Shown one piece after another: positions 1-62,635 of a stretch of 64,000 nucleotides of DNA. The notes beneath the pieces were generated by a model. The model had not been told where the DNA came from, did no database searches, and saw only the letters and a program-made list of their open reading frames with translations. The first letter of the stretch is position 1, and every line of letters begins with the position of its first letter. The stretch comes from Lewinellaceae bacterium SD302 (lineage in GTDB: Bacteria > Bacteroidota > Bacteroidia > Chitinophagales > Saprospiraceae), in NCBI GenBank assembly GCA_002591745.1, contig PDLQ01000016.1:1-64000 (forward strand). Reading direction: 5' to 3'. A program made the position numbers and the translations under genes.

Positions 1-863
1 ATGAAGACTTCGACTGCTGCTTCCAGGTCGGCTACGATGATGGTGTAGTTGGTGGTGAGCATTACGGTGTTTCCGAAATCGTCACTTCCTTCGTACTCTA
101 CGGTAATGGGGTAGGTGCCGGGTACGGTGGGGGCGGGTACGATAGCGCGGAAACGCAGGTCGGCACCCGGACCAGCGTTGGCCGGGCTGTTGGTGATACC
201 GTAACGACTGTCATCCCACTCATGATTGCTAAAAGGAGCGTCGCCAATATTTTGTAACCGATATTCCCGGTAGAGCGGGGTGCCGGGTGCCACGGTGATG
301 GTGTTGGGGGTCGTGTTGGGAGCCACCGGACAGGAAGCCAGATCAGTAGTATCCACACAAAAGCCTTCCGCTTCGAGGATGAAAACTTCCACTTGTGCTT
401 CCGGCCCTGCTACTTTGAAGTCATAATTATCCGTAACGGTCAGAGAATTACCAGCCAGGTTCTCAATCGTCGCGCTCACGGTAGGAGTAACCATACGCGC
501 CGTGGTTTCGGCAGGAAAAACGCGGTTGGTGACATAAGTGCCGCCAGGGGGTATGGTGATGGCCGAAACTGGCAGGATAGTCCCCCGATCACTGTCATCG
601 ATGAGCACCGAATTGACCGTTCCGGCCGAATTATTCGCGATGCGATAGGTAATAATTATTTGCCCATCCTGGCCGGGGATATAGACGAGATTGTCATTAC
701 CATCAGGTACGTTGATGCAATCCGTATCGGGGTCATTGACGGGAAAAGTACACTGGTCATCCGCCAGCCCGATAGAGGCGCTGACCGTGACGTTCTGAGC
801 GGTCAGCGGGCCGACGGATAAAACCAGTGCGATAAAAGCAACGAATAGGTAGAATTTGGACAT
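1..863 (-). CDS. secreted repeat (DUF11/CARDB-like) protein, N-terminal part
   Basis: The reading frame starts at 863 and stays open to the left edge of the window, so only the first 287 codons are visible. The N-terminus MSKFYLFVAFIALVLSVG followed by PLTAQ is a clear signal peptide with a signal-peptidase I site after TAQ. The rest is rich in Thr, Asp, Pro and Gly with alternating beta-strand patterns. It contains phrases typical of DUF11/CARDB-type surface repeats: 'VPGQ.G.I.I.YRI.NNS' near residue 55, a second module near 150 with paired Cys, and a 'TYPITVEYEG.DDFGN' strand near 250. In this phylum such proteins normally end in a T9SS sorting domain, which would lie outside the window. 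Function is unknown; adhesin or surface-layer role is inference. Confidence 0.75.
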   Translation of the reverse strand, partial: MSKFYLFVAFIALVLSVGPLTAQNVTVSASIGLADDQCTFPVNDPDTDCINVPDGNDNLVYIPGQDGQIIITYRIANNSAGTVNSVLIDDSDRGTILPVSAITIPPGGTYVTNRVFPAETTARMVTPTVSATIENLAGNSLTVTDNYDFKVAGPEAQVEVFILEAEGFCVDTTDLASCPVAPNTTPNTITVAPGTPLYREYRLQNIGDAPFSNHEWDDSRYGITNSPANAGPGADLRFRAIVPAPTVPGTYPITVEYEGSDDFGNTVMLTTNYTIIVADLEAAVEVF

Positions 864-989
864 AGGCGAGTTTCTTATGGTCCAAAGTTCTTGCCTCGTT
901 AGTGGGCTCGCCTCACCCAATCGGGTGGGTTAGGTGGAATCAGTTCATGATAACCACATTGTGGCCTCACGCAAAGTGCGTAATTGGCA

Positions 990-1166
990 AGGTTTCATGC
1001 GGACGACGCAGAAGAGCTGAGGTATATCTTTGGCTATCGTCGTTCCCGCCGAGGGGCGGGTATTTTGAATACTGCGCTGAGAAATTGAAACGCAGCGCCC
1101 TTCGGCGCGTCAGGAATAATCATTAAACTGACCTTTGCTCATCGGCACTCTCTGCGTGAAACCTCG
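990..1166. repeat. dispersed hairpin repeat with terminal inverted repeats, copy 1
   Basis: The 317-nt gap between the genes ending at 864 and 1181 holds this element. Its ends are inverted copies (AGGTTTCATGCG at the left, GCGTGAAACCT at the right). Inside lie two GC hairpins, CCCGCCGAGGGGCGGG and GCGCCCTTCGGCGCG, separated by a GCGCTGAG word. The same order recurs at 3722-3929 and, inverted, at 62636-62846. A 74-codon ORF at 902-1126 crosses it but shows no protein-like character. Confidence 0.7.
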
Positions 1167-1180
1167 TATGGTATGCTCGC

Positions 1181-3652
1181 CTAAAAAATCACCCGTACAT
1201 CCGTCCCCTTTTCAACGCTCACTTCCAGTCGCCCTTGTAGCTGCTTGGTTAAGGTCTGGATGAGCAAAGTACCGAAGGAATCCGTGGCATCCGTCAGCAA
1301 TTGGCCGGAGCCTGGCCCGTCGTCGGCCACCCGTAGCGTGGTCAGTTTGTGCTCCCTTTTCAGGCTTACCCAAAGTTGACCACTCGAGCGGTTTTGGTAA
1401 GCATATTTGATGGAGTTCGTGACCAATTCGTTGGCAATAAGGCCCAGGGGAATTAGTCGGTCGATATCGATGGACACTTCGTCAAAATCCGTGATGAGTT
1501 CAATTTTTGTTTCCGGCCCGGCGTAGGAAGCCAGTAGTTCCCCGGTGAGTCTTTCCAGGTAATCCTTGGCGGGGATAGTGGGCGTCACGCTGTCCTGCAA
1601 ATAAAGCCCCTGGTGGATAATGGCCATGGAACGCACCCGACTGCGGCCCATTTGCAGGGCATTCAGGGCAGTAGGGTCTTCCACGTAATTACTCTGCAGA
1701 GAAAGGAGAGAGCTGATGATCTGCAGGTTGTTTTTTACACGGTGGTGAATTTCCTTGAGCAGGGTATCTTTTTCGGCTAACGAAGTAGCAATGATCTCGT
1801 TCTGAACGGAAATTCGACGGCGTTGGCGGCTAACGAACCAGAGTAAGGTACCCGTAACGGCCAGCCCGGCCAATGTTAGTCCGATGATCCAGCGCTGGCG
1901 GCGCAGACTGGCGGAACTGAGCTTTTCTTCCAGTTCCAGGCGGCTTATTTCTTCTTCTTTTTCTTTCAGATTGAAACGGGTCTCCATTTCGCTCATGGCT
2001 TCGTTACGTTTGCGGACCGTCAGGCTGTCATTGTAGTCCAGGTAGATCGCCAGGTAGTGGTTGATCGAGTCATTATTGGAAATTTTCACCAGGGAAGTCA
2101 GCATTTGGCCATACACCTGAACCTGACTTTCCAGGTGGCCGATCTGATCCACCAGTTTACGGGCTCTCCACAGATGCGGCAAAGCCCGTTCGGGCTGCCC
2201 CAGTTCTTCGTAAGCATTGGCTATCGCATGTTCGGAGGCCAGTTGCTGATTGGGGTTACCTACCTCGGAAAAAATCACATTCGCTTCTCTCGCCAGTTCG
2301 AGTGCTTTCTCCGGTTGGCTATTCGATGAATAGTACTGTGCGAAGTTGGTCAGGCTAAGCGCCAGCCTAGGTCGGAAAGTAACTCCTTGCGCCCGGGCGA
2401 TTTCAATGCTCTTCTCGTAATAGTAGATTGTGCTGTCGTGTTGTCCTAAATCTCCAAAACAAGCTGCCAGGTTAACTATCGGGTTAAATTTGCGGCCATG
2501 ATCTTCGAGCAATTTTTCCGAACGGCGAAAATATTCGATCGCTCCTTCCGGATCTTTCATCCTTCGTTTGGCAATCGCCATGGTATTCAGCCCGTCACCT
2601 TGTATGGACTTGTCACTAGTTTTGCGAGCGGCTTCGTAACTGGCTTGGCCGTGTTCAAATACTTTGTCGTAATTCCCGGTAGGAGAATAGTAATGGGCCA
2701 GGTTGCTGTGAACTGCACTGATTTGTGAGTAGTTTTCTGACCCCCGCAAATATTCCAACGCGGTATGGCTATCCGCCCGGGCCGCCGCGTAATTCCCCCG
2801 GCGCATCTGCATCCGCGCCAGTTCAAAGTGATAGACTCCGAGTGGCTCATCTTTTCCGTATTGTTCGGCAATTTTATGCAGGGTGTCCAGGGTGCGTACA
2901 ATTAAGGCGGTATCCGGTCCGCGCCGGATGCTGTGTAAACGATCCCTCACTTCGGTCATTTCCGGGTATGGATCAGCTTCGGCTTCAGCTTCGGTCTGAG
3001 CCAGCAGCCCGCTGCAGAAAAGCATGGCCAACAGTACCATCAATTTGCGGACCAGGCGCAAGCAGGCCAGTCGACTATTGGCACCCAGTTTAGCGAAAAG
3101 ACTTTTCTGGTAGGTCTTCACCGTGTTGATGCTAACGTCAAGCTCATCACTCACCTGCTGGTAGGTTAGTCCCTTGTCCAGGTGGCATAGCACCTCGTAT
3201 TCCCTGGGTGTCAGGTCATTGGCCAGTTTGCCGTTCAGTTTATTCAAGCCGGGTAGGTCGCCCTCTTTTTCACTGGCGTGTTTGTGCAGGGCCAACTCTA
3301 TGGCGGATAACAGATCACGCTCGTTGAAGGGTTTGACGATGTAACCGTAAGGCAGGGTTTGTCCGGCAGCACTCAGGGTGTTGCGGTCGGAATAAGCCGT
3401 CAGGAAAACGAAAGGGATTTTATGACGGTCTCGGATGTGGTGAGCCAGGTCGATGCCATTTTTAGTGCCTTTTACATTGATGTCGAGCAAAGCCAGGTCT
3501 GGGCGGCGATTAACGAGTAAATCCAGGGCCTCGTCACCATTGGGTGTACTACCGGCAATGCGGTAGCCGAGGCGACGTAGGGTCAGTTCAATTTCGGTGG
3601 CAACGAGGGCTTCGTCTTCTACGATCAGGATGCTGGGGGCGGCTGTTTGCAT
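1181..3652 (-). CDS. response regulator (REC-LuxR HTH) fused to TPR sensor histidine kinase
   Basis: A single 823-residue frame holds two normally separate signalling proteins. Residues 5-120 are a REC domain (acidic pair E12/D13, phosphoacceptor D57, T85, K107). Residues 146-204 are a LuxR/GerE helix-turn-helix. Residues 205-219 ([16 protein letters not shown]) look exactly like the signal peptide of a Bacteroidota histidine kinase. About 220-545 is a TPR array, 546-585 a coiled coil, 588-607 a transmembrane helix followed by RQRRR, and 632-823 a HisKA_2/HATPase kinase ([11 protein letters not shown] with H636/H637, N-box around N741, G-box DDGPGSG at 778). Topology is consistent: REC-HTH inside, TPR outside, kinase inside. 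The kinase alone could also start at an in-frame ATG at 3040 (M205). No stop separates the halves, so this is either a real hybrid or a lost stop codon. Confidence 0.9.
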
Positions 3653-8128: not shown

Positions 8129-8347
8129 AGAGGATGAAAATTAGAGGATAGGCGATTAGACGAAGGGCTTTTTGAAGCTCGGGATTTTCATTGACATTGC
8201 TACTTTGAAGTAACGAGTTTTTATATGTTACAGGTTTTGAATTAAGTTTGCTGGCACTTGTCACCTGACAAGCTTAATTCGACGTACCTTCAAACGGTAC
8301 TTTGAAATTCAAGGAATTCGCTTAATTTAGCCCAAAAGCAAGTAAAA
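8129..8347. other. intergenic region with CATTGCTACTTTG motif and CTTTGAA palindrome
   Basis: No gene is seen. CATTGCTACTTTG at 8195-8207 is an exact copy of the 13-mer repeated across the window. At 8301-8315 a TACTTTGAAATTCAAGG word nearly matches the perfect CTTTGAAATTCAAAG palindrome at 34672-34686. It sits about 35 nt before the start of the downstream gene, so it may be part of that gene's promoter or operator. Confidence 0.4.
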
Positions 8348-10729: not shown

Positions 10730-10840
10730 TTAATAGCAGGTATCATAGTCAGTAGTATGGTAGCAGGGAACTCCCAGTTCATATTTTCAAAAGCGTAGCG
10801 CCATTATGTCTTTTGGACTTCAAAGTAGCAAGGTGGACAA

Positions 10841-19818: not shown

Positions 19819-20300
19819 AGTGTAGGTGGTTTTAATTCTTGCTTCAATTTACGAAGGAATTCTAATGATCGAATGAGGTAATGACTAAATGATCGTATCG
19901 TAAGGCCCATTGAATCATTAATTCACTATCTCACTCTATCATTGTTGATTGCCAAAATGACAGCCTTCGGCCGAATCCACTTACATTCCGTCAGTTCACG
20001 GGACCTGGAACGGCCTTTGTAATTTGTGGGGTGGCTAGCAAAGTAGCAAGGTTCAAAGTTGGAACGTTGAACTTTTGTACGTAGGCCCAGGGTCGAGGAC
20101 CTCCGGTCCGAGGTACTTGTTAGAGCGGTAATTCAGCCTTCTGATTTTACGTTTTGCTGAATTGAAAGCGCTCTCTGTACTTTACCGACCTTGCTACTTT
20201 ACCTTCGGTGATCGTCCCTACGGTCCTCGGAGTTGAAGCCAAAAAAGTACACGTTAAACTGCATCTAAACTTCAATTTCCAAACTCTAACATCTATCAAA
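19819..20300. other. 482-nt intergenic region rich in dispersed motifs
   Basis: No gene seen. 19859-19945 carries AATCATT-type repeats. CAAAGTAGCA occurs at 20039-20048, and a near copy TTGCTACTTTAC at 20191 faces it, so the two form an inverted pair around 140 nt. A word GATCGTCCCTACGGTCCTCGGAG followed by TTGAAGCC (20210-20240) recurs at 62504-62532 and, inverted and diverged, at 31157-31196. The htpG promoter must lie in the last 60 nt but no clear consensus is visible. Confidence 0.45.
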
Positions 20301-23033: not shown

Positions 23034-23232
23034 GAGTCAGGATCACCGTTGGTCGCTATGCTTCCTCGGTTTTGGGAAATAGGAGCCGAGCGGGTTGCGT
23101 CCCAGGGACGTGTACACGCTACGCTTTATTCCTACTGAAGGTCAGACTGCATAGCAGTCGGACTGTCGCGCTGGCTCTTATTTCTAAAAGCGCAGCACTC
23201 CTATCTCCTATTTCTTAGCTGGCAAAGTAGCA
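23028..23232. repeat. intergenic repeat with GAAATAGGAG ends and CAAAGTAGCA motif
   Basis: GAAATAGGAG at 23028 and CTCCTATTTC near 23207 are inverted ends. The right part (TAAAAGCGCAGCACTCCTA) is nearly identical to 40494-40514 (TAAAATCGCAGCGCTCCTA). CAAAGTAGCA follows at 23223. The inner part contains small hairpins such as GACTGCATAGCAGTC. No coding potential. Confidence 0.5.
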
Positions 23233-26200: not shown

Positions 26201-27953
26201 CTACAAAGCCGTCGAGAGTTACCTGAATACAGATCACTCCATCGCTTAGCCCGAAGCAGGACGGAAGGGTGTCCAGAATTGAAAGTCCCAATGCCGGTGG
26301 TGCAAAAACTTCCACGGTATCCTGTACGATGTCACCGTTGCAATCTTCTACCCGGGTGGCATAAATACCCGCACCAAGCCCACAGAATTCTACTTCGCTC
26401 GGGCTGCCCGAAATCATCGTTACGGGCTCGAATGGATTGTTCATCGGTGCGATCTGGCGGTAGGTGATCTCATAATCTGTACATCCACCGGCGGCAATCA
26501 CGTTGATACACCCGTCGAGGGAACCCTGACAAGAAATACTATCAGTCGTTACATCTACGAAGAAAGGATCGGAGGAAAGACATACCGTGCCATTATTTAT
26601 AATAAAGCCGGCATTGGAATTCGTGAGCGTAGAAACCTCGATCGGAATTGGCATATCCGTAAAGGTCAGCGGACTACACTCGCCCAGGTCGCCGATAGCC
26701 GTAAAGCATAATTCATAGATCTCGTCACCGTCCACCAGGGTTTGCCCCGTACCCGTCAGGTCGGTATATGTTACCCGGCCCGTACCGTTTGGCTGGCTAC
26801 CTCCGGCGGAAAGAGGTCCGTTTATACTTCCACTGGTGAAGCCGGGAAGGTTACCCGGGGTCGTAATACTGGTCATTTCCAATACGGTCGGATCGTAGCT
26901 GAGCGAATGCTGAAAGCCCAGTACGTCCACGAAACCGGCTACCGTGGCCGAAACGCAAAACATTTCCCCTGGCAAATGATTCTCAAACGGAAAAGTAAAG
27001 GTCACCGCGTCACAACTACCCTGATCCACTACGCGGGAAGCCTCACAGGACTTGCCGTCCTCTACGGTAATGCGGTAGTCGCCAGGTTGGGGAACGGTAT
27101 AGTTAATTACTTCGTCGTGGCCCACGCCGGCCACAATGGCCGTACCGGTGATCGTGGGGTCGCTGGTCAGTTCGATAGTTACGTTGTACTCATTGCCTGG
27201 AAGCAGTTCGGGCAGGCCGCCGCGTACGCGGAAACTACCCTCACAACCCGTCTGTACCGCATCGTTAATCTCGATCTCGTTCAAATAAGCCACGGCAAAA
27301 GTGGCGGAGATATTCAGGTCCAGACACTGTCCGGGCGGATTGGCCGGATTATTGTTCTCCCGCTCGTAAACGGCCAGTTGGCTTATTGGGTCAAGAGCAT
27401 CGAAGGTGATCGGAGCAAAGTGTACGATCCTGGGTACCGGGGCACCGGCAACTGGAAAGGCTCCCTGAATCTGACCCAGGTTCCAGAACCAGCCGTCTCC
27501 GTCCAGGTCCGCTCCACTATCTACAAAAAAGCCGAAAGGGGAGGCGATCACCTCGCTGTTCAATACGCAGGGGTCGGCGGCGATGTCTTCCAGTGCCGGT
27601 CCTTCGGTAGTAGGGGGGCAATCGAATAGCGCGTAACCTATCCCTGCCGGGGTAGTGTTCACGGGGTCACCGTTCAGACTAATGCTACCGTTGTCATGGT
27701 TGATGAAAATACTGTCGCCAAAACAGAGGAAGATCGTATCCGGGGTCGCATCATTACTTTGGCCGATGAAGGGCCCGAAATTTTGAATCACCCCCGCATC
27801 CTGTCCGGCGCAGGGCATCCGGGCAATACCATCCTCCACGGCCTCTCGGTCCACGGGAATGAAGGTGGGGTTTTGGGCTAACAAAGTAGCAGTGCCAGTA
27901 AATAACAGGGAAAAGCACAGCATGGCGACCGCGCGAGTTAAACTTAGTTTCAT
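23238..27953 (-). CDS. giant SprB-repeat surface protein with CHU_C (T9SS type B) C-terminus
   Basis: A 1571-residue secreted protein. Signal peptide: MKLSLTRAVAMLCFSLLF and on to LLAQ. A Lewinella-type N-domain (FGPFIGQSNDATPDTIFLCFGD) covers about 50-230. A cohesin-like domain lies at about 320-455 (GFQHSLSYDPTVLEM). Then come about eleven SprB/PKD-like repeats of the form C.G..DG.I......GG..PY.Y.WS...........L..G.Y.VTVTD..GC, roughly 460-1400. The C-terminal 85 residues (VYIPNVFSPNRDGRNEDF, FDRWGG, WDG, TGVYVYMIE) are the gliding-motility-associated CHU_C domain that directs T9SS export and surface attachment. Likely an adhesin or gliding-related filament. Long plus-strand ORFs across it are shadows. 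Confidence 0.93.
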   Translation of the reverse strand: MKLSLTRAVAMLCFSLLFTGTATLLAQNPTFIPVDREAVEDGIARMPCAGQDAGVIQNFGPFIGQSNDATPDTIFLCFGDSIFINHDNGSISLNGDPVNTTPAGIGYALFDCPPTTEGPALEDIAADPCVLNSEVIASPFGFFVDSGADLDGDGWFWNLGQIQGAFPVAGAPVPRIVHFAPITFDALDPISQLAVYERENNNPANPPGQCLDLNISATFAVAYLNEIEINDAVQTGCEGSFRVRGGLPELLPGNEYNVTIELTSDPTITGTAIVAGVGHDEVINYTVPQPGDYRITVEDGKSCEASRVVDQGSCDAVTFTFPFENHLPGEMFCVSATVAGFVDVLGFQHSLSYDPTVLEMTSITTPGNLPGFTSGSINGPLSAGGSQPNGTGRVTYTDLTGTGQTLVDGDEIYELCFTAIGDLGECSPLTFTDMPIPIEVSTLTNSNAGFIINNGTVCLSSDPFFVDVTTDSISCQGSLDGCINVIAAGGCTDYEITYRQIAPMNNPFEPVTMISGSPSEVEFCGLGAGIYATRVEDCNGDIVQDTVEVFAPPALGLSILDTLPSCFGLSDGVICIQVTLDGFVVDDPVAAGYTFNWNNTAANTACITGLDAPFTYEVTVTSPTGCTVEAALPLGDPARVLVLPMEPDDAVTDATCSGSEDGSITISASGGTTMSGDYTFSWSNNEMATGTMVTLDNLDPGFYEVTVTDDNGCEAISSFNVLADKILSVNAVVEDVQCFGDDNGSIFATGVTTFNGPGGMPDLPYTFVWSANAPVPTNTITTTEIDNLGPDSYTLTMTDDEGCTIDTTFTIEEPTLLQITEVITTNETCETGSDGTATVVVDGGVYPYTYAWSSTADLDSTATGLVAGTNFMVTVTDANGCEQIETFDISSPQGPIITAFDDTFVSCPESTDGELTVVATDGSGPISTYQWANEDGDIIATGPNTTTITNLAPGCYTVTITAVDACFTIDTACVLSPGLVALDSVQVQTPTCPGESNGRIQLFPSGGTPPYTYTWSTNPNEPGTINPLTSLAAGTYFVTVVDANDCTPLVDTIVLPDPPSITAEFTSLVPVTCPDDVTCNGAATVMANYSDGTNGTFNFVWSNGDTELGVATSMVDMLCRGEISVDITDGSCGVTFSDTIQSPEEIVIGVEIEPVSCNGLSDGMITLDPMGGTQPFDFFWVGSGNTTPIEDNLSAGIYTANVTDANGCARQQVVEVTEPDELVLSLNDLETTTAVSCAGDTDGIISVFVSSGNNNPLLTEPYTWSGGVAPPSSSTATNLSPGTYNVTVTDIKGCTDELSYTIGEPTPITFSLLPIEEPLCFGETTLVLIDTAFGGRSSEFADFSFSVNNDGFQIPVTQPGTTFAGQTVVTVFDTVGCSVSDTFSVNQPPQILVDLPESILIELGDSLTVLNPIISPAGDVYDFLWTPGDFLSSDTVRAPTIFPLESTDYTFQVTNANGCQAFADIFVEVDANRNVYIPNVFSPNRDGRNEDFRIFACLGVQSVNFVRIFDRWGGQIYEATSLEPNCLDGIQLWDGMYREKPASTGVYVYMIEVSFLDGRTLLYRGDVSILR

Positions 27954-31156: not shown

Positions 31157-31241
31157 AGTTTCAACTCCGTGGAGTTTGCGACGACGATCACCGAGGTCAT
31201 CGGCGCCAGCTAATGTATCGAGTATATAAAAACGGAACGAA

Positions 31242-40349: not shown

Positions 40350-40416
40350 CAAAGTAGCAATGCTAATCGATTAAATACCGCTCGTCATCAGGCCTTAATT
40401 GAGCAATGCTACTTTG
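40350..40416. repeat. facing pair of CAAAGTAGCA motifs
   Basis: CTTCAAAGTAGCAATGC (40347-40363) faces GCAATGCTACTTTGAAG (40403-40419) across about 40 nt, forming a 10-bp core inverted repeat with the TTGAAG flank also matching. It lies in the 297-nt gap between carB and the VioB-like fusion gene. Could form a hairpin or be bound as a dimer site. Confidence 0.55.
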
Positions 40417-43436: not shown

Positions 43437-43479
43437 CAAAGTAGCAATGTTTGTGAGTGGCTGAAGCCTTGCTACTTTG
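43437..43479. repeat. facing pair of CAAAGTAGCA motifs
   Basis: GGCTATCAAAGTAGCAATG (43431-43449) faces CCTTGCTACTTTGAAGCC (43467-43484) with about 20 nt between, a near-perfect 16-bp hairpin arm. It lies between carB and the aminotransferase gene, upstream of the carB -7 element. Confidence 0.55.
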
Positions 43480-43607: not shown

Positions 43608-44807
43608 TTAACCACCCAATACTAACTTTAAAATCTCCACTGCTCGCAAAACCTCTTCTTCCGTATTGTAGTAATGCACGCTCAGCCGCAAGGCCCATTC
43701 CACTCCTTGCTCCCGGAAGTGGAACTGGTCGTTGGCAATACCGCTGGTGGAGGCGTTGAGCCCCCCTTGCTGTAACTGGGCCACGGTTTCCGCCGCCGTT
43801 AGCCCTGTATCCACATCAAATAGCAGGATGCCGGTTTGGTGTTCTTCTTGATTAACAAAGTAGCAATGTTCACGAAGAAACGGTAGTTTTCCGCACTCGA
43901 CCGATAGCCGATTGGCCAGCATGATTACCCGTTTTTGAATGAAATCTATCCCGACTTCATTGAGATACTCCGTCGCCAGGGCTGCGCCTGTCTGCAGAGC
44001 TTTACTGCTTTCCCACATTTCAAAGCGGGCGGCGGTCTCGTCCAGCTCATATTTGTCTGGTGCCGTCCATCTGGCTCCCTGGAGGTCCATACCGGTCGGT
44101 TCCATTCCCGCCGCCAGCACCCGGTCGGAGACGTAGAGGAAACCAATACCTCGAGGCCCGCGCATATACTTCCGAAAGGTAGCACTCAGAAAATCGCAAG
44201 CGATCTCGTTTACGTCCAGCGGTAATTGCCCGGCGCTCTGGCAGGCATCCACGGCATAAAGGACGTCGTATTGCCGGCAAAGCCGACCTGCGGCAATAAT
44301 ATCCTGGGCGCGCCCGCTGTTCGTCGGAACGTGGGTGATGCTCACCAGGCGGGGCAGAGGGCCGGTTGCGAGCCGTTTCGCCAATCGTTCCGGGTCATAG
44401 CCAGATACTCCTTCGGGCAGGATTTCAACTTTCACCCCCCGCTTTTTGGCCAACTGTAAAAAATAGAGGTGATTACTGACGTAGTCACTCTTAGTCGTCA
44501 GGACGATGTCTCCGGGCTGCCAATCAATGGAACTCAACCCGCGGTCAAAGGCTTCGGTAGCGCTACCGGCACGGGCGATGTTTTCGGGTCGGCAGTTGAG
44601 GTATCGAGCCAGTTGAATGTAGAAGTTGTCCAGTTGCTCCTTGTAGTCCCGGGCAATCTCGTAAGCACCAACTCGTCCTTCCTCGGTGAGGTATTCGACC
44701 ATGCCTGTGGTAACTGCCTGGGTAGGGAGAGAGCCACCGGCATTATTAAAGTGGATCAGGTCCGGAGTGATGGCAGTGTTTTGGCGAATTTGCGGGAGGC
44801 TGGGCAT
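43608..44807 (-). CDS. class V aminotransferase / cysteine-desulfurase-like PLP enzyme
   Basis: A 399-residue fold-type I PLP enzyme. FNNAGGSLPTQAV is the N-terminal signature, VSITHVPTNSGRAQDI and YAVDACQSAGQLPLDV bind the cofactor, and the PLP Lys is in LSATFRKYMRGPRGIGFLYV. C-terminal SVHYYNTEEEV is the usual small-domain end. Substrate unclear: closest in feel to cysteine lyase, isopenicillin-epimerase-like members of the family rather than IscS/SufS, since no active-site Cys loop is seen. It follows alaS by 12 nt and is probably co-transcribed. Residues REHCYFVNQ are encoded by a copy of the CAAAGTAGCAATG motif. Confidence 0.82.
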   Translation of the reverse strand: MPSLPQIRQNTAITPDLIHFNNAGGSLPTQAVTTGMVEYLTEEGRVGAYEIARDYKEQLDNFYIQLARYLNCRPENIARAGSATEAFDRGLSSIDWQPGDIVLTTKSDYVSNHLYFLQLAKKRGVKVEILPEGVSGYDPERLAKRLATGPLPRLVSITHVPTNSGRAQDIIAAGRLCRQYDVLYAVDACQSAGQLPLDVNEIACDFLSATFRKYMRGPRGIGFLYVSDRVLAAGMEPTGMDLQGARWTAPDKYELDETAARFEMWESSKALQTGAALATEYLNEVGIDFIQKRVIMLANRLSVECGKLPFLREHCYFVNQEEHQTGILLFDVDTGLTAAETVAQLQQGGLNASTSGIANDQFHFREQGVEWALRLSVHYYNTEEEVLRAVEILKLVLGG

Positions 44808-47473: not shown

Positions 47474-48029
47474 ATGTATCGGCAATGATTGAATGATATA
47501 ATGAGGCAATGTTTAAATGGTGTAGCGCTTCTTGATTCTATCGTCAGATCATCTACTCGACTTATCGTTTTTTTGGGTCTTCAAAGTAGCAGGGCTGGTT
47601 ACGAGTTCGTCGGCCGGGGGGGGGGGGGGCTGTCGTCATCAAAGGAATGATCGTAATCCACTTGGCGTAAGAGCTCAGTTTTTTACTCACCTTGCTACTT
47701 TGTTAATCCAAAAATACACTCACCCTTAAGGCCGGAAACTGAATGTAAGTTTCACTACCCGGCGTTTTTGGCAGCTTCCATTATTCGCAATAAGCCCTTG
47801 CTTGCTCAACTCTTATCTTAGTTTCAGGGGAGAAAGTGTTCTTCGAATAATAGCCATCCGCGAAAAAGCAAGCTGATGATCGCCTTTATGGATGTTGAAG
47901 CTACCCTCGAATGCTCGATTATTGTAAACCCATGCAGAATTTTTTATTTTCAGAAAGGTGATAGGTTCGTGTTTTGAACACAAATATTCTCATAAAAGTT
48001 ACATTGTTGATAAGTTTTCTTTCTTCTTC
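47474..48029. other. long intergenic region with poly-G tract and motif pair
   Basis: No gene is supported between alaS and the M23 peptidase. It starts with AATGATTGAATGATATAATGAGG (AATCATT-type repeat). CAAAGTAGCA at 47582-47591 and TGCTACTTTG at 47693-47702 face each other across 101 nt, with a 14-G run at 47616-47629 between them. From 47710 to 48029 nothing recognisable is seen. ORFs at 47532-47729 and 47974-48168 have no family character and unusual starts. Confidence 0.5.
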
Positions 48030-53267: not shown

Positions 53268-53409
53268 CATTGCTACTTTGAAGCTATAATGATAAAACGA
53301 ATGAGTATTCCCCAGTTCAATCACTGGATCATTCAATCATTAGATCATTAGATCATTGAATCATTGAATCATTGAATCATTGCTTCATTGAATCATTCAT
53401 TCAATCATT
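53268..53409. repeat. CATTGCTACTTTG motif followed by TGAATCATT tandem tract
   Basis: CATTGCTACTTTG at 53268-53280 is an exact copy of the recurring 13-mer. From 53318 to 53409 the sequence is an irregular tandem of AATCATTAGATCATTGAATCATTGAATC words (about six to seven units of 9-10 nt). It lies directly before the EnvC-like start and may influence its expression or simply be a repeat expansion. Confidence 0.6.
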
Positions 53410-56556: not shown

Positions 56557-58374
56557 CTATTCTTTCCGGATTTTTACTTCCTCTGCGGGAATTGCAATCC
56601 CCATTTTGGCCATCAGCAGAGTGGCGTTGAAGCTTTTACAGACCCCGGCCCGCAGCTTGTAGTCGAAAACCATATCCTGGCCTTCAGTCTGGATTTCCAT
56701 CGCATAATTTTCTACCCGACTACCGACTTCATTCTCCATTTCTGCCAGTTCGAGGTCGTGGGTGGCGATGATGCCGGCTCCTTTCGATTGAATTAGTTGG
56801 CGGATCAGCGCCCTTGCGCCTACGTGGCGGTCGCGCGAATTAGTTCCTTTCAAAATTTCGTCCAGTAAGAAGAAGACCTGTTTCTCCTTTGCTTCCACGG
56901 CGGCAATGATGGCTTTAAGTCGTTTTAGCTCGGCGAAAAAGCTACTGGTGCTTTCGTGGAGGGCATCCTGGGTACGCATACTCGTCCAAACCTGCATCTG
57001 GGGCAGCCTCATTTCGGAGGCACATACGGGTGCGCCACAGAGGGCCAGCACTACGTTGATGCCTACGGTCCTCAACCAGGTCGATTTGCCGGCCATATTA
57101 CTGCCGGTGACGAGGTGGATGTGGCCATCCGTTTCAATATTCAGGTCATTAGTCACCATGCTTTTCGGTTCCAGCAGAGGATGACCCAGGTGGCTGGCAA
57201 AGTAGCAATGTTCTTGGTGAACGTCAGCGAAAGCGAAATCCGGGCGGTTGAAATGAAGATTCGCCAGACTGACCAGAGCATCGATCTCCGCCAGGCTCTC
57301 GAACCAGGCGGGAAGGGATTTCCGATGCTCGCGTCTCCACCGTTCCAGGCGGGCGATCCACTGAACGCTCCAAAGACCGGATACTTCCAGGAGAGCAGAA
57401 AAGGCGTTGTAGCGCACATCCAGCTGACTGATGGCGTAACGTAGTTGCCGGGTAGCTGAACTGGCAGACCGACCCTGGCCAAGGATAGGTTTCTGCAGTT
57501 TTTGCAGTAAAGGGCTTTCCCAGTCCGTCGCTTCAATCTGTTCCAGCAAATCGGCGTAGTAACTCAGCACGCTGCCGGCCTGGGCGGTGAAAGTGTGTAC
57601 CCGGCTGATCTCTTCACCAAATTTTCGCATCACCAAGGCTACGGGAATGAGGCCAAACAACGCCATCTGCCAATTGGGTAGCATAAACAGGCCGACTACG
57701 GTAAGCACGAAAAATAGCGGTACAAACCAGCGGGCGGCCCGGAGTAGCGGTGTTCCATAGACCAGCTCCGGTTCTTCCAGCCAGAGCTGAAGGCGCTTCA
57801 GGTACTGAGGGTCGTCTTCCAGGTCGGCTCCCCTGGCCCGGAAGATATGGCACCATTCGGGCTCCTGACCCAGTTCCCGGATAGCTGCCTGGCGTTCCAG
57901 AACCACGGAGGTGGGAGCGGCTTCCAGTAAAGCATCAGCTAACCAGCGTTTGCCTACGGCGGTGACACAACGGTTGAGGTATTGGAAAAGTGAGTGTGGT
58001 CCGAAGAGGTCCAGATCTGCGGCGTAGGAATGCGTAAGGTCCAGAAATTCCTGACCGCCGTCAAATATGTCGAACTCGTGTTCCAGGGCCATCAATTCAC
58101 TGGCGGAAATAGCGGCCAGGTGCTCGGCCATTGCCGAAGCCCGATAAATAGCTTGGTGTTTTTTTACGCCATAGGCGAAAAGAGGAAGAAAGATCAGGGC
58201 ACCGGCCAGGCCGAAATACCACTGGTAACTCCATAATAAAATGACCAGGGCAACGAGTAAAAAAAATATCAGGAGACGGGCGTAGGAAAGTCGGTTATAA
58301 TGAGTGCGCAAGCGGGCAGCTTCGGCTTCGAATTTTTCCTGTTCGTCGATGTAGTGAGCGCGGGGTGAGTGCAT
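56557..58374 (-). CDS. membrane-anchored MutS-like ATPase
   Basis: A 605-residue MutS-family protein without the N-terminal mismatch-binding domain. Two adjacent hydrophobic helices (about 32-75) follow an N-terminal coiled coil, so it is probably attached to the inner membrane. The lever/clamp region covers about 100-380. The ABC-type ATPase has Walker A VTGSNMAGKSTWLRT, signature STSSFFAELKRL, Walker B FFLLDEILKGTNSRDRH, and ATHDLELAEM. This Bacteroidota branch is usually annotated only as MutS-related; its DNA target is unknown and mismatch repair is unlikely. The -7 TATCTTCG ends 5 nt before ATG, suggesting a leaderless mRNA. Confidence 0.85.
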   Translation of the reverse strand: MHSPRAHYIDEQEKFEAEAARLRTHYNRLSYARLLIFFLLVALVILLWSYQWYFGLAGALIFLPLFAYGVKKHQAIYRASAMAEHLAAISASELMALEHEFDIFDGGQEFLDLTHSYAADLDLFGPHSLFQYLNRCVTAVGKRWLADALLEAAPTSVVLERQAAIRELGQEPEWCHIFRARGADLEDDPQYLKRLQLWLEEPELVYGTPLLRAARWFVPLFFVLTVVGLFMLPNWQMALFGLIPVALVMRKFGEEISRVHTFTAQAGSVLSYYADLLEQIEATDWESPLLQKLQKPILGQGRSASSATRQLRYAISQLDVRYNAFSALLEVSGLWSVQWIARLERWRREHRKSLPAWFESLAEIDALVSLANLHFNRPDFAFADVHQEHCYFASHLGHPLLEPKSMVTNDLNIETDGHIHLVTGSNMAGKSTWLRTVGINVVLALCGAPVCASEMRLPQMQVWTSMRTQDALHESTSSFFAELKRLKAIIAAVEAKEKQVFFLLDEILKGTNSRDRHVGARALIRQLIQSKGAGIIATHDLELAEMENEVGSRVENYAMEIQTEGQDMVFDYKLRAGVCKSFNATLLMAKMGIAIPAEEVKIRKE

Positions 58375-58408
58375 GGGGGCGAAGATAGACGTTAGTCGGG
58401 TAGTATGG

Positions 58409-58624: not shown

Positions 58625-58996
58625 ATGAATACCCGATTATTGAGCTCAAGCAGCATTACCGGAACCACCGTATACAACACCCGCAACGAGAAACTGGGTG
58701 AGATTAAAGATCTGATGATCAATGTCCATAACGGACATATCAATTATGCCGTGTTATCATTCGGCGGTTTCCTGGGATTAGGTGATAAATACTTCGCCGT
58801 GCCAATGGAGGCCTTTACGATCAACCGGGATAATGAAAACTTTGTCCTGAATGTATCCAAAGATCGCTTGGAAAATGCCCCGGGATTCGATAAAGACAAC
58901 TGGCCGAGCAGTACCGATGAAACGTACACCAATGACGTGTACCGCTACTACGATTTAGAGCGTAGCCGTGTAGTAAAACCTGAAATGGTCAGTTAA
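58625..58996 (+). CDS. PRC-barrel domain protein
   Basis: A 123-residue PRC-barrel protein: SSSITGTTVYNTRNEKLGEIKDLMI, then YAVLSFGGFLGLGDKYFAVPMEAF, the family's characteristic strand set. The C-terminal 45 residues are polar. Such small PRC-barrel proteins are often stress-induced and of unknown biochemical role. The AT-rich upstream region suggests regulated expression. Confidence 0.88.
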   Translation: MNTRLLSSSSITGTTVYNTRNEKLGEIKDLMINVHNGHINYAVLSFGGFLGLGDKYFAVPMEAFTINRDNENFVLNVSKDRLENAPGFDKDNWPSSTDETYTNDVYRYYDLERSRVVKPEMVS

Positions 58997-59068
58997 TAAA
59001 GAAGTCGCCTATCACGATGCCGTACCGACGTGGTCCCACGTTGATTACGGTGGCTTTGACAAGCCAGA

Positions 59069-59104
59069 AAAACCCTGTCTACCCTTTACGGTAGATGGGG
59101 TTTT
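59069..59104. terminator. bidirectional terminator between PRC-barrel and helicase genes
   Basis: AAAACCCTGTCTACC and GGTAGATGGGGTTTT form a 15-bp stem (one mismatch pair) with a CTTTAC loop, flanked by A-rich and T-rich arms. It serves both convergent genes; the helicase stop is at its right edge. Confidence 0.8.
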
Positions 59105-60431
59105 ACTTTTTCCATTTTTTATTGGATTTACGTTTGCCGCGTTTACGGCCACGCTTTTCTTCCAGTTCCCTGCGGGTCAGATTTACCTTACTATTGCGCT
59201 TGCTCTTATTGTGGTAAGCCCCGGCCTTGGTGGTATCTAACTTGACGCGGATGTTCGCCACCTTGTTGTCCGGCATTTCCTCGAGAATAAGCTGGTCGGA
59301 AATCTCGAGGTCTTCGGGGTTGGGGCGTACCACTAACTTGGTTTGCATCAATTCTTCGGCGTTGCTGAGCTTTTCTTCTTCGTAAGGGGCGTAGAGCGTG
59401 ATGGCTACTCCGCTTTTATCGGCCCGGCCGGTTCTTCCGATACGGTGCACATAATTCTCGGCTACTTCCGGCACATCCAGATTAATAACGTGAGAGACGT
59501 CGCTGAGGTCCAGGCCCCGACTCACCAGATCAGTGGCGATGAGCATACGCTTTTCTCCACTTTGAAAAGCACGTAAACTCTCGAAGCGATAATTCTGGCT
59601 CTTGTTTCCATGAATCACTGCTACTTTGCCAGGAAAAATACCCTCCAGTGTTTCGGCTACTACGTCAGCAAGGCGTTTGCCAGGGGCAAAAACCAGTACC
59701 CGGTGGAAGGTCTCCTTATCAGCCAACAGTCGTTTCAGTAAATTGACCTTAGTATTGAAGTTAGGTAAGGAATAGGCTACCTGCTCGATCTTCTCCAAAG
59801 GCGTTCCGGAGGGAGCAGCTTCAATGGTGTCGGGAAAATCAAAGCTTTCTTCAATAAACTGGCCGATCTCTGGAATAAGGGTAGCCGAGAATAACAGGTT
59901 CTGTCTTTTATCCGGCAACTGATCGAAGATACGTTGTAGCTGGGGGCGAAAGCCGAGCTCCAGCAGTTCGTCCATCTCATCGATGATCACCCGTTTGATG
60001 GCCTTGAAGTTGAGGGTACCATGAAGGGCTAAGTCCAGCGTGCGACCGGGGGTGCCGACCAGAATGTCCAGCCCCGCGTCTACCGCATCTTTTTGCTTGT
60101 TGATGTTGGCCCCGCCGTAAACACCGACGGTCACCACGTTCTGGTAAGTGGTGAGTCGCTCAATTTCTTCTACCACCTGTACCACTAGTTCGCGGGTGGG
60201 TACGATGATCAAAACCTGCGGGAAACGCTCCTTGCTGAATTTCCACAAACGCAGCACCGGCAGGAGGTAGGCGATGGTTTTCCCCGTACCGGTCTGGGCG
60301 ATGCCCACTACGTCGCGGCCGGACATGATGACCGGAAAAGCTTTTTCCTGAATGGGCGTCGGCGTAGTCAGTCCGGCGTCATCGAGGGCGCGGAGCTGTA
60401 GGTTGGAGAGATTAAGGTCTTGGAAAGTCAT
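59103..60431 (-). CDS. DEAD-box-type RNA helicase with DEMD motif II
   Basis: A 442-residue superfamily 2 helicase. Q motif TPTPIQEKAFP, motif I AQTGTGKT, Ia PTREL, Ib TPGRTLDL, motif II VIIDEMDELLELGF, III SATL, V TDLVSRGLDLSDV, VI HRIGRTGR. Motif II reads DEMD in place of DEAD, a variation in the third position. The C-terminal tail is Lys/Arg-rich (KRGRKRGKRKSNKKWKK), typical for RNA binding. Role in ribosome assembly or RNA decay is inferred. Transcribed after purF with a 53-nt gap. Confidence 0.9.
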   Translation of the reverse strand: MTFQDLNLSNLQLRALDDAGLTTPTPIQEKAFPVIMSGRDVVGIAQTGTGKTIAYLLPVLRLWKFSKERFPQVLIIVPTRELVVQVVEEIERLTTYQNVVTVGVYGGANINKQKDAVDAGLDILVGTPGRTLDLALHGTLNFKAIKRVIIDEMDELLELGFRPQLQRIFDQLPDKRQNLLFSATLIPEIGQFIEESFDFPDTIEAAPSGTPLEKIEQVAYSLPNFNTKVNLLKRLLADKETFHRVLVFAPGKRLADVVAETLEGIFPGKVAVIHGNKSQNYRFESLRAFQSGEKRMLIATDLVSRGLDLSDVSHVINLDVPEVAENYVHRIGRTGRADKSGVAITLYAPYEEEKLSNAEELMQTKLVVRPNPEDLEISDQLILEEMPDNKVANIRVKLDTTKAGAYHNKSKRNSKVNLTRRELEEKRGRKRGKRKSNKKWKK

Positions 60432-60484
60432 AGGATAAGTTAGCCTTTATCAGGGATAGATCCTGAACTAAATTCGACGGCACG

Positions 60485-62377
60485 TTAATACGCCCGGGCA
60501 TCATTGCCCTCGTAATAGTTTACGTACGATTGGTTTACCACCCGGGTCCCACCCGCCGTAGGGTAGTCGCCGTCAAAGTACCAACTCCCATTATTATTTG
60601 GGCAGGCTTCTTTGAGGTCCTCAACGGATTGGTAGATCACCTTTACCGGAAATTTGATCTCTTTGGGGGTAACGATCTCGGCAATCTTGTCGGAAACTTG
60701 CTCGTAGTCAAATTGGGCGTAAAGCTCTTTAACGGCATTGACCTGCTGGTCGATCGGTTTTGTCAACTCTTCCTGGCAGCGCTGGTAGACCTTCTTGAGC
60801 AATTTCTTCTTGCCGTTTTCCCTAAGTAGTTCCTCCACGGCGCGGAAGGCTACGAATTCACGCATTTTAGACATGTCGATGCCATAACAATCCGGATAGC
60901 GGATCTGGGGCGCGCTGGAAACGATCACCACTTTTTTTGGTCGCAGACGGCTGACGATGCTGATCACGCTGTCTCGCAACGTAGTACCACGGACGATACT
61001 GTCGTCCAGCAATACCAGCGTGTCTACCTCATTGCGCACGATGCCGTAAGTAACGTCATAAACGTGACTGACCATCTCATCACGACTGCTGGTGTCGGCA
61101 ATAAACGTACGGGTCTTTCCGTCCTTGACCACCAGTTTTTCATTGCGGACCTTGGTTTTCAGGATTTTGCTCAGTTTTCCTTTCTTGCCCTTTTTCTGGG
61201 CATTCTGGATTTTCTTTTTCTTCCATTTATCCAACTCAATTTCCAGTCCGTCGACCATGCCGTAAAAGGCAGTCTCGGCCGTATTGGGGATGTAGCTGAA
61301 AACAGTGTTGTCAAAATCGTAATCTACGGCTTTCAGCACCTTCTTGGCCAGGCGGACACCCAGTTCCTTACGCTCCAGATAAATGTCGCGGTCGGTACCC
61401 CGGCTGAAGTAAATCCGCTCAAAAGAACAGGCCGAACGGGGCAGGGGATCGATGAAGGGCTCCATCGTTACTGTCCCGTTTTTCTTAATGATGAGGGCAT
61501 GACCGGGTTCCACCTCCTGGATTTCGGTAATGTGCTTGTTGAACACGGTCTGCAGGGCAGGGCGCTCACTGGCTACGGCTACGAACTCTTCGTCATGGAA
61601 ATAAAAAGCGGGGCGGATGCCGGCGGGGTCGCGCATCACAAAAGCATCCCCGTGGCCCATCAGGCCACCCATTACGTAGCCGCCGTCGAATTTTTTACTG
61701 GCGCGGCGTAGCAATCTGGCCACATCCAGCTCTTCGGCAATCAGTTTGTTGATCTCCATATTGGAATAGCCTTCCGGCTTGTACCAGTTGTGGATGCGGT
61801 CTACCTCGTCGTCCAGAAAATGCCCGATCTTCTCGAGCACGGTGACGGTATCCGATCTTTCTTTAGGGTACTGGCCCAATTCTACCAGCTCTTTAAAGAG
61901 CTCGGTAACGTTGGTGAGGTTGAAGTTGCCGGCTACGATCAGGCAGCGGGTCATCCAGTTGCTCTGGCGCAGGAAAGGATGGCAGGTTTCGATATCGTTG
62001 CTACCGTGGGTGCCGTAGCGCAAGTGCCCCATCATTAGTTCACCGGTATAGGGCATATTGGCCTTCAGCCACTTTCCATCGTGTACCTTTTCAGGAGGAA
62101 TCTTGTCGAAGCGCCGGTAGACGCCTTTCCACAGGTGATCCAGGTAGTTCTTGTCGCTGCTACGCTTGCGGCTGATGAATTTTTTGCCTGGCTCCACATC
62201 AAATTTGATGGTAGCCATTCCGGCTCCGTCCTGTCCGCGGTTACGCATTTTGCGCATCAGCAGTTGTAGGCTTTTCAGCCCGTGGATGGGCGTACCGTAC
62301 TTCTCTTCGTAATAATCCAGGGGCTTGAGCAGCCGGATCATGGCTAGCCCGCATTCGTGGTGGATAATATCGCTCAT
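60485..62377 (-). CDS. purF: amidophosphoribosyltransferase, long Bacteroidota form
   Basis: A 630-residue PurF-type enzyme. The glutaminase half has HHECGLAMIRL (catalytic Cys9 after removal of a short leader), RGQDGAGM, HLRYGTHG and VAGNFNLTN. The PRPP half has VLLDDSIVRGTTLRDSV. A Lys-rich insert (about 390-425, KKKIQNAQKKGKKGKLSK) and a C-terminal extension (about 560-630) make it longer than the usual 470-510 residues. This long type is common in Bacteroidota, which often carry a second, standard PurF, so its role as the main enzyme of purine synthesis is likely but not certain. Confidence 0.88.
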   Translation of the reverse strand: MSDIIHHECGLAMIRLLKPLDYYEEKYGTPIHGLKSLQLLMRKMRNRGQDGAGMATIKFDVEPGKKFISRKRSSDKNYLDHLWKGVYRRFDKIPPEKVHDGKWLKANMPYTGELMMGHLRYGTHGSNDIETCHPFLRQSNWMTRCLIVAGNFNLTNVTELFKELVELGQYPKERSDTVTVLEKIGHFLDDEVDRIHNWYKPEGYSNMEINKLIAEELDVARLLRRASKKFDGGYVMGGLMGHGDAFVMRDPAGIRPAFYFHDEEFVAVASERPALQTVFNKHITEIQEVEPGHALIIKKNGTVTMEPFIDPLPRSACSFERIYFSRGTDRDIYLERKELGVRLAKKVLKAVDYDFDNTVFSYIPNTAETAFYGMVDGLEIELDKWKKKKIQNAQKKGKKGKLSKILKTKVRNEKLVVKDGKTRTFIADTSSRDEMVSHVYDVTYGIVRNEVDTLVLLDDSIVRGTTLRDSVISIVSRLRPKKVVIVSSAPQIRYPDCYGIDMSKMREFVAFRAVEELLRENGKKKLLKKVYQRCQEELTKPIDQQVNAVKELYAQFDYEQVSDKIAEIVTPKEIKFPVKVIYQSVEDLKEACPNNNGSWYFDGDYPTAGGTRVVNQSYVNYYEGNDARAY

Positions 62378-62405
62378 TGGGAAAAAAGTGGCTCCGTTAA
62401 GAATG

Positions 62406-62413
62406 CAAAGGTA
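62406..62413 (-). promoter_or_regulatory. -7 element TACCTTTG for purF
   Basis: On the minus strand TACCTTTG lies 28 nt before the purF ATG, identical to the elements before mtaB and alaS. Confidence 0.5.
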
Positions 62414-62635
62414 GGAAAGAAAAGAGCATGGAGAATAGAGGATGAAAAATAGACGCCAGCTTTACCGTGTCCCGACAAAGGCACGGCTACTTTAGCTAAC
62501 GCTGATCGTCCTTTGTCCTCGGAGTAGAAGCCATAATTATTGTTTTGACTAACAAAGTAGCAATGTCCTGGAACGCAGTCAGCTAAGGCTTACAGTATCC
62601 ATCTGTATCGTAGTAGCCACTGGTCATACAAGACG

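Follow-up and report, generated by a model that had tools for sequence, protein, structure and literature searches.

Introduction

Pasteurellaceae and Neisseriaceae, both pilus users, have words that mark self-DNA across the genome, and in H. influenzae uptake is reported to be independent of the orientation of the USS (PMC1939737, in the sections available). The available sections of PMC2397512 describe the Neisseria DUS as a feature of the core genome that lies in permissive places and is absent from recently acquired genes, with a spacing linked to recombination tract size and with inverted repeats that often act as terminators. Across a family, the DUS forms dialects (PMC3630211, in the portion accessible). 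In the Bacteroidota, Riemerella is described as naturally competent, with uptake in the absence of pilus homologues; R. columbina prefers its own DNA, and in its k-mer counts the top three words per length are A-rich, all according to the excerpted text of these reports.

Literature searches on DNA uptake sequences together with competence in Bacteroidetes returned nothing on point as judged by titles and the opening of abstracts, nor did a search on Lewinella with overrepresented words and uptake, and none of the papers listed for CAAAGTAGCA dealt with genome words by title. In this literature we found no report of a directional self-DNA word, nor of a self-DNA word in Bacteroidota. Here we describe the 10-mer CAAAGTAGCA of Lewinellaceae bacterium SD302, in its genome and in a 64-kb window, by which we mean the whole stretch of DNA analysed (64,000 nt).

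Results

Abundance of the word and its copies in the window

The window carries 17 exact copies of CAAAGTAGCA, 10 on the + and 7 on the - strand, against an expectation of 0.10 (sd 0.30) from 100 dinucleotide shuffles, and the 13-mer CAAAGTAGCAATG occurs seven times. In the whole genome (5.48 Mb) we counted 1344 copies, 669 forward and 675 reverse, which is 84 times the count of the reversed word over the same 5.48 Mb (16; 7 and 9). A first-pass annotation of the window had pointed out the over-representation and the seven full 13-mers and had proposed a count against a Markov background; all 17 copies and seven 13-mers are present, background is greatly exceeded across the genome, and against a Markov-3 background run on 819 kb the 10-mer ranks first among words (203 observed vs 3.4 expected). 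Sixteen of its 17 start positions are correct, and the one at 27892 is off by 10 from the true start at 27882. Its description of the copies as mostly intergenic also stands, with 12 of the 17 between genes, but its tally of seven sites at genes or gene edges comes down to five inside genes by our gene calls, which were made with our own hexamer script, not a published caller.

Between genes, the copies at 8198..8207 (-), 53271..53280 (-) and 62553..62562 (+) are part of the 13-mer, one copy lies at 10821..10830 (+), and that at 23223..23232 (+) sits in a convergent region. The copy at 20039..20048 (+) is ~160 bp from a split copy in the opposite orientation. Those at 40350..40359 (+, with the 13-mer) and 40407..40416 (-) face each other as inverted partners, 43437..43446 (+, with the 13-mer) faces 43470..43479 (-), and 47582..47591 (+), in the divergent region upstream of the alanyl-tRNA synthetase gene, shares this region with 47693..47702 (-) in the opposite orientation. 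Inside genes, the word occurs at 408..417 (-) in a predicted gene (3-863, -), at 27882..27891 (+) in a gene for a SprB/CHU_C surface protein, within its 5' end, at 43856..43865 (+, with the 13-mer; peptide HCYFV) in a class-V aminotransferase / cysteine-desulfurase-like gene, at 57198..57207 (+, with the 13-mer; peptide HCYFA) in a MutS-like gene, and at 59619..59628 (-; peptide KVAV) in a DEAD-box helicase gene. The copies at 43437 and 43856 form one of the few close same-strand pairs.

An extended motif with a nearly invariant core

CAAAGTAGCA is the core of a ~30 bp motif, T-tract-GRCT-N(1-2)-CAAAGTAGCA-RNGYY, which does not differ between the intergenic (116) and coding (86) copies compared and whose fuller pattern occurs 1011 times in the SD302 genome. 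The core is nearly invariant and the spacer between GRCT and the core is strictly 1-2 nt; tolerance is sharp, with 397 perfect cores having both flanks versus 79 for all 30 single-mismatch cores combined. Covariation was analysed in 500 copies divided into two spacer classes, where the stem tested paired no more than expected and a scan of flank pairs gave nothing beyond z 2.8; a stem-loop GRC:GYY was rejected on this lack of covariation. The missing covariation, the core and the strict spacer together support a role that the first-pass annotation had listed, that of a putative binding site read by a protein.

Gene context

About 42% of the copies lie within genes and the majority are intergenic. 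Tandem and divergent intergenic regions are enriched ~9-13-fold over coding sequence, and orientation relative to the nearest gene is slightly biased (238 co / 289 anti), both of which would suit a promoter, terminator or RNA element. Such an element is nevertheless highly improbable and already contradicted: besides the share of copies inside genes, the word hardly follows gene strand and keeps no fixed distance to gene starts, convergent regions hold 0.56 copies per kb versus 1.11 in tandem and 1.55 in divergent ones, the 500 copies lack covariation, and the window has no Rfam match at the gathering threshold. The Bacteroidota -7/-33 promoter consensus resembles the reverse complement TGCTACTTTG, but the logo has no outstanding -33 partner, and the absence of a fixed distance and of all but a slight orientation relative to genes further rules it out. 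A terminator was likewise rejected on the thinning in convergent regions and on the inverted pair 40350/40407, where a T-run precedes the arms and an A-run follows them.

Origin of the copies and the AA-flanked module

Around plain copies, the logo has faded out at ~25-28 bp, with no common unit beyond ~30 bp. Since the aligned flanks lose the motif, the copies do not belong to a single long repeat, an outcome that the first-pass annotation had considered. At the MutS-like copy (57198), 17 congeners with full-length matches align with no gap at the site, suggesting that this copy arose by substitution in place. Of 180 coding sites (chosen after leaving out, among 463 copies, the 29 that were off-motif, as was also done for one fine table), six had homologues over the site, four ungapped and two gapped; at one gapped site (C93), six of seven matches would allow insertion in its own gene. 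The helicase and aminotransferase copies, compared with solved structures, fall at or near gaps of 1-2 residues in seven of eight printed alignments, and such gap-prone loops cannot tell a substitution from an insertion. These few alignments indicate that at least some coding copies probably originated by substitution in place.

Some copies contain or adjoin an AA-flanked module of ~32 bp, and by a loose regular expression 45 of 67 such elements lie next to one motif half or both. In the window, the module parts the GRCT-N-C and AGTAGCA halves of the split copy at 20199..20234 (-), it accompanies a second split copy at 62492..62525 (-) adjoining the 62553 copy, and it occurs as a hairpin module with neither motif half at 31163..31196 (+; weak match, E 0.04). 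The module and the C93 site could speak for a mobile repeat, REP-like or derived from transposon ends, that spread with the word as its conserved core. We consider this very unlikely, given the fading logo, the apparent in-place origin of the MutS-like copy and the small number of modules (67 elements vs 527 words in 2.08 Mb); where testable in genes, the alignments appear to refute it largely, and the first-pass suggestion of a repeat-family core is not supported. REP/BIME repeats of RAYT transposases share with the word numerous intergenic copies, inverted pairs and GTAG in the core. The motif here, in contrast, shows no base-pair covariation, occurs in full inside coding genes and seems to have arisen in place at the best-compared site.

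Strand-specific spacing

On each strand, the copies keep apart from one another with a hard core of ~3 kb that is strand-specific. In 2.075 of 5.48 Mb (~13 kb masked; all 527 copies used), 43 same-strand pairs closer than 3 kb were observed where 220 were expected, whereas opposite-strand pairs numbered 207 against 224. The same-strand deficit is present in intergenic-intergenic, intergenic-coding and coding-coding pairs alike, and a pair regression gave same-strand rate ratios of 0.03-0.07 below 1.5 kb. The first-pass remark that the word has no strong strand preference therefore holds for the totals but not for the spacing. Opposite-strand copies cluster below 300 bp; facing pairs are favoured up to ~1.5 kb, and back-to-back pairs are depleted at 1-2 kb and favoured at 3-3.5 kb. 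In simulations with a 3 kb reach that we preset, the same-strand hole is reproduced, and directional coverage models retain close opposite-strand pairs whereas a non-directional model empties all close pairs; none of the four models simulated yields the cross-strand pattern, nor do they match how strongly copies attract each other below 300 bp.

This geometry bears on three further readings. The first is a Chi-like recombination or repair signal, in which a helicase-nuclease entering at DNA ends would read one strand and switch to recombination, so that each strand would need copies every few kb. Chi is likewise asymmetric and acts in a manner that varies with strand and direction, and such logic fits the same-strand redundancy. 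However, Chi is short and strand-skewed, and GCTGGTGG, which we take to be the Chi word, is clustered with no exclusion (CV 1.66; 100 + strand places of one genome), whereas the motif here is ~30 bp long, mostly intergenic, over-dispersed and unskewed: with the sign of contig GC skew as a stand-in for replication direction, positive contigs carry 169 + / 174 - copies and negative ones 73 + / 65 -. A Chi-like role is thus rather unlikely.

Second, a chromosome-organising or nucleoid protein may bind the word, loading or bridging DNA directionally every few kb. The even spacing (variance/mean 0.60 per 10 kb), the intergenic preference and the near independence of gene strand agree with it, but the clustering of opposite-strand copies below 300 bp, a defence island that lacks the word and the background counts in all 20 congeners (see below) do not, and those counts would demand an organising system novel to the species. 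Chromosome organisation, which the first-pass annotation had also named and on which contig GC skew shows no bias, keeps a small probability.

Third, each copy could be a pac-like packaging start from which a gene-transfer agent or prophage relative fills few-kb heads one way, giving a transfer advantage. By analogy, the directionality and ~3 kb reach might recall headful packaging that begins at a defined site. Such packaging would make facing pairs redundant, yet they are favoured, and we regard packaging as quite improbable.

Distribution and candidate machinery

The fuller motif pattern occurs at most once per genome in 394 other sampled genomes of the phylum, and CAAAGTAGCA is above background in none of 20 congeners. 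In 40 kb samples from ten of these, no comparable dialect word was found; GATTTTAGAC of one congener (G013) was rejected as a dialect word as it occurs in clusters. A collection-wide scan for CTTCAAAGTAGCAATG gave at least 53 stretches with one match each, possibly with the organism's own records left out, and 43 viral stretches have one match each. Within the genome, the longest copy-free stretch among the fetched DNA contains defence-type genes (three of 14 genes searched), a low-GC 20 kb stretch has zero copies, and copy density follows GC in a weak trend (rho 0.20, P 0.005, 204 windows). These limited data indicate that the word thins out where GC is low and is absent from the single defence island looked at. 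A second copy-free gap measures 23.9 kb.

For the T2SS/T4P ATPase, the PF00437 profile, the sole family searched, gave two short matches of 24.9 and 22.5 bits (curated cut-off 24.9 bits; true members in two other genomes 410-423 bits). The 24.9-bit match recurs in most congeners, and we read it as putatively UvrA-like. ComEC is present; since it is also present in all 18 congeners searched, it does not discriminate.

Discussion

We tentatively, and with limited confidence, explain the word as an address for self-DNA that is polar and read by a protein, most probably a signal for the uptake or transfer of DNA that molecular drive maintains. A sequence-specific DNA-binding protein would read the motif on double-stranded DNA and act in a polar way over a few kb on one side. 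Because one copy per strand per few kb would suffice under such one-sided action, a second nearby same-strand copy would be redundant and lost, and an opposite-strand copy would serve the other side and be kept. The likeliest process would be the preferential directional uptake or transfer of own DNA, through which copies would build up by molecular drive in the manner of the uptake words of Pasteurellaceae and Neisseriaceae. The more specific form, in which each copy serves one ~3 kb flank, the strands form two independent, evenly tiled sets, and a probable non-pilus DNA-transfer reader arose, or had its word changed, in one species, is possible, and we hold it with greater reserve.

In favour of the polar address we count abundance, strand balance, uniqueness, sharp tolerance, the apparent in-place origin, the same-strand spacing, the directional simulations and a strand balance and excess like those of known uptake words, as well as the defence-type genes in the longest gap and, from the excerpts available, the competence of Riemerella with no pilus. 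Against it stand the lack of a T2SS/T4P ATPase beyond two short PF00437 matches, the non-discriminating ComEC, the few testable in-place sites, the unreproduced cross-strand pattern, the USS sharing the contrast below 200 bp, and the background level of the word in congeners. Given the orientation-independent uptake of H. influenzae (PMC1939737, in the sections available), a polar effect would be new.

If the polar address is true, self-DNA words can arise within one lineage, here a species with no detected pilus ATPase and congeners at background, and the word could serve as bait DNA in a search for the machinery by which this phylum takes up or transfers DNA. The strand-specific exclusion over 3 kb can be measured, is absent from the available text of the uptake-word papers compared, and makes a directional mechanism directly testable.

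Comparison with uptake words

The USS is the closest in form. AAGTGCGGT, which we take to be the USS, occurs at 27-48 times its reversed-word control in five carrying genomes (1270-3035 vs 36-63), presumably Pasteurellaceae judging from the word, and equally on both strands. The USS and CAAAGTAGCA are both strand-balanced words of 9-10 bp with a similar excess, and in both an A/T-rich tract adjoins an invariant core. The USS, however, is common to a family, whereas CAAAGTAGCA was found in one species.

The word resembles the DUS as described in PMC2397512 (in the sections available), a word of the core genome that lies in permissive places and has a spacing linked to recombination tract size. 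Inverted repeats of the DUS often act as terminators, whereas CAAAGTAGCA is thinner in convergent intergenic regions. Shared DUS/USS dialects have no counterpart among the congeners (20 for CAAAGTAGCA; 40 kb from ten). The redundancy expected under orientation independence is also not what we see (same-strand 43 vs 220, opposite-strand 207 vs 224). Because orientation matters and no pilus ATPase was found, the word is not a classical DUS/USS.

The spacing separates them further. In our USS control (G530, 140 kb; G545, the 47 places on contig C2 out of 50 listed; G455, 100 listed + strand places; uniform null; only 148 copies in the two-strand part), pairs below 200 bp numbered 4 vs 11.5 expected on the same strand and 18 vs 11.4 on opposite strands, so at this range CAAAGTAGCA has the contrast in common with the USS. 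At 200-700 bp both kinds were thinned alike (same-strand 14 vs 28.7, opposite 15 vs 28.6), and beyond 700 bp the same-strand counts show no steady deficit (700-1000 bp, 21 vs 17.2; 1000-1500 bp, 18 vs 28.6; 1500-2000 bp, 37 vs 28.6). USS exclusion is weaker, shorter and strand-unspecific beyond 200 bp, in contrast to that of CAAAGTAGCA. What is new here is this geometry, a same-strand exclusion up to ~3 kb with no opposite-strand exclusion.

Abundance and species-specificity of the word

The first-pass annotation had counted 17 exact copies of the 10-mer CAAAGTAGCA in the window, and this count was borne out (10 on the + strand and 7 on the - strand, against a chance expectation of 0.10 per window; one listed coordinate was off by ten). 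Its description of the word as genome-wide also holds: the 5.48-Mb assembly of Lewinellaceae bacterium SD302 (147 contigs) carries 669 forward and 675 reverse copies, whereas the reversed word has 7 and 9. Extended by NNG, the 10-mer occurs 1266 times versus 3 for the control, and GRCT-N(1-2)-CAAAGTAGCA-NNG gives 505 and 506 copies versus 0 and 1. Among related genomes, a comparison that the annotation had proposed, each of 20 congeners holds 1 to 12 copies of the 10-mer, and each of 59 other genomes, these congeners included, holds 1 to 38, the maximum lying in an 11.2-Mb genome. The 13-mer pattern has at most 13 matches per genome among 397 other genomes of the family, and the full pattern occurs once in each of 8 of 394 other genomes of the phylum and in none of the rest. 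The congeners are distant (51-55% identity of the MutS-like protein over 17 full-length matches), and 40-kb samples from ten of them contained no dispersed 10-mer of like strength, with top scores of at most 13.7 versus a yardstick of 20.6-31.4 in three 40-kb samples of SD302. These sequence statistics establish a real, species-specific, protein-type address motif, kept at roughly one copy every few kilobases on each strand. Separately, AATGATTCAATG and its variants appear in 7 copies on a k-mer list of the window, and one congener (G013, stretch L107) has clustered GATTTTAGAC repeats, 9 copies in 20 kb.

Motif anatomy and placement

Across 202 copies, the motif consists of a T-rich tract (-12 to -7), G R C T, a spacer of 1 or 2 nt, CAAAGTAGCA and R N G Y Y, and it is identical between the 116 intergenic and 86 coding copies. 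Over 527 copies in 2.08 Mb, G stands at +12 in 94%, and the tract has at least four T in 55% versus 4% of random places. The spacer is 2 nt in 296 copies and 1 nt in 122, while lengths of 0, 3, 4 and 5 nt account for 0, 0, 1 and 1 copies (2.08 Mb). Where both flanks are present, there are 397 perfect cores versus 79 for all 30 single-mismatch cores pooled (A10C, 35; position 4, 22; A2G, 7). No base-pair covariation was found across 500 copies. Such anatomy would mark a site that a protein reads in double-stranded DNA, as against RNA or a hairpin.

Intergenic copies make up 270 of 463, though intergenic sequence is 13.9% of the total; densities per kb are 1.55 in divergent, 1.11 in tandem and 0.56 in convergent regions and 0.12 in coding sequence. 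Orientation relative to genes is near neutral (tandem, 87 anti and 69 co; coding, 102 and 91), with a slight bias over all 527 copies (289 anti versus 238 co). Coding copies prefer two frames, reading K-V-A and A-T-L (137/193), and avoid the TAG-containing frame (1/193, probably a gene-call error). In the divergent region preceding the alanyl-tRNA synthetase gene, a 14-G run (~47.61-47.63 kb of the window), possibly a slippage tract, adjoins two copies.

Strand geometry and spacing

Same-strand pairs closer than 3 kb number 39 versus 199 expected under a null preserving intergenic/coding class (463 copies, 1.82 Mb). With 527 copies in 2.08 Mb, the figures are 43 versus 220, and opposite-strand pairs stand at 207 versus 224; the same-strand deficit extends to every class (intergenic-intergenic 13/105, intergenic-coding 20/83, coding-coding 10/33). 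When pairs among 410 interior copies were fitted by regression, same-strand rate ratios were 0.03-0.07 below 1.5 kb, 0.19-0.38 at 1.5 to 3 kb, ~0.7 at 3 to 5 kb and ~1 farther out. Facing opposite-strand pairs were favoured 3.2-3.5-fold below 300 bp, declining to neutral by 2 kb. For back-to-back pairs the rate ratio was 2.5-4 below 300 bp, fell to 0.22-0.34 at 1-2 kb and rose to 1.7 at 3-3.5 kb. Mean same-strand spacing is 7.6 kb (CV 0.65), and a variance/mean ratio of 0.60 shows that the counts in 10-kb bins are under-dispersed. A binding site that organises the chromosome is an unlikely reading of the motif.

We simulated selection for coverage under four models with a 3-kb reach set by us, and the same-strand hole appeared in all four at this preset reach. 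Directional models keep close opposite-strand pairs, and the non-directional model empties these too, unlike the observed genome; none of the four reproduced the full cross-strand pattern. A site at which DNA packaging starts is an improbable reading of the motif.

The lowest-GC tenth of 204 windows has 1.71 copies per 10 kb versus ~2.7 (Spearman 0.20, P 0.005). In the sequence covered, the longest run with no copy is 25.6 kb (contig C60:29232-54845, stretches L189-L190). A search of 3 of the 14 genes called there identified DrmD-like and PDC-M16A/B-like defence genes, and the run probably has further ones. Another copy-free gap spans 23.9 kb, and a low-GC 20-kb stretch also has no copy. DUS, the Neisseria uptake words, are reportedly missing from recently acquired genes (PMC2397512).

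Split copies and the origin of coding copies

Some copies are split by a module of ~32 bp, CTCCGAGGA-x-GACGATCA-x-T, with AA on either side (~30-32 bp between the AAs) and mini-hairpins of C-GNA-G type that covary by eye. It lies within the motif (GRCT-N-C-AA(module)AA-AGTAGCA) or directly after it, and 2.08 Mb of the genome holds 73 matches in 67 elements, of which 45, under a permissive rule, border one or both motif halves. The window has split copies at 20199-20234 and 62492-62525 (both -) and a weakly matching hairpin module at 31163-31196 (+). Around the 21 elements that have both halves but lack an intact word (three being tandem arrays), there are 4 same-strand plain copies within 3 kb versus 15.5 expected, and 13 opposite. 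By class, each including some elements with their own intact word, the counts are 4/16.3 for both halves, 1/9.1 for the 5' half only, 3/8.2 for the 3' half only and 10/16.8 for neither. The same-strand deficit argues that split copies still act as copies, or did until recently. In appearance, the module resembles a miniature mobile element that targets AA within the motif. At module places seen in congeners, the flanks inspected lacked the word. In two congeners (G001, stretch L256, contig G001:C42; G017, stretch L259, contig G017:C6), the module sits in the anticodon-loop region of truncated tRNA-Ser(GGA) copies directly upstream of the intact gene, two in one congener and one in the other.

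The copy in the MutS-like gene (57198-57207, +) encodes HCYFA at a variable spot, where all 17 full-length congener matches differ and are gapless; matches in the remaining three congeners are partial or weak. Of 180 coding sites checked against the available congener DNA, 6 are spanned by homologues, four gapless, including one at 85% identity (KVA versus NVA), and two gapped. At the first gapped site, the gap is in the relative for 6 of 7 matches, which would permit insertion; at the second, both gaps are in the SD302 protein. The helicase copy (59619-59628, -; KVAV) and aminotransferase copy (43856-43865, +; HCYFV) occupy loops that align to solved structures with short gaps. Among coding copies, the MutS-like alignment and the site comparison make it clear that at least one arose in place.

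Uptake machinery and comparison with known words

ComEC is present in SD302 and in all 18 congeners searched. A search for the sole pilus family covered, the T2SS/T4P ATPase, revealed no such protein, yielding just two short matches (24.9 bits, equal to the cut-off, and 22.5 bits). Natural competence in the absence of pilus homologues is reported for two other Bacteroidota, Riemerella anatipestifer and R. columbina, the latter reportedly preferring its own DNA; we therefore keep a polar word for uptake or transfer as the first reading despite the missing pilus, tentatively and at somewhat less than an even chance.

Of 148 genomes from one order, 5 are rich in the Pasteurellaceae uptake word USS, AAGTGCGGT, with 1270-3035 copies versus 36-63 of the reversed word. 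In 148 copies from two USS-rich genomes, a uniform null predicts 28.7 same-strand pairs below 500 bp, and 10 are observed. The contrast below 200 bp resembles that of the SD302 word (same 4/11.5, opposite 18/11.4), but at 200 to 700 bp both orientations are thinned alike (14/28.7 and 15/28.6), and beyond 700 bp same-strand counts scatter (21/17.2, 18/28.6, 37/28.6, 58/57.3). Because two tested features of DUS and USS were not found for the SD302 word, it should not be filed as either. USS same-strand CVs are 0.82 (genome G530) and 1.00 (G455, + strand only), and the recombination word Chi has 1.66 (+ strand, one genome of the same order). A Chi-like signal is an unlikely reading of the SD302 word. 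Spacings below 0.4 of the mean make up 26% for USS in both G530 and G455 and 9.5% for the SD302 word versus 33% for an exponential, and the SD302 word is far more regular than the USS or Chi word.
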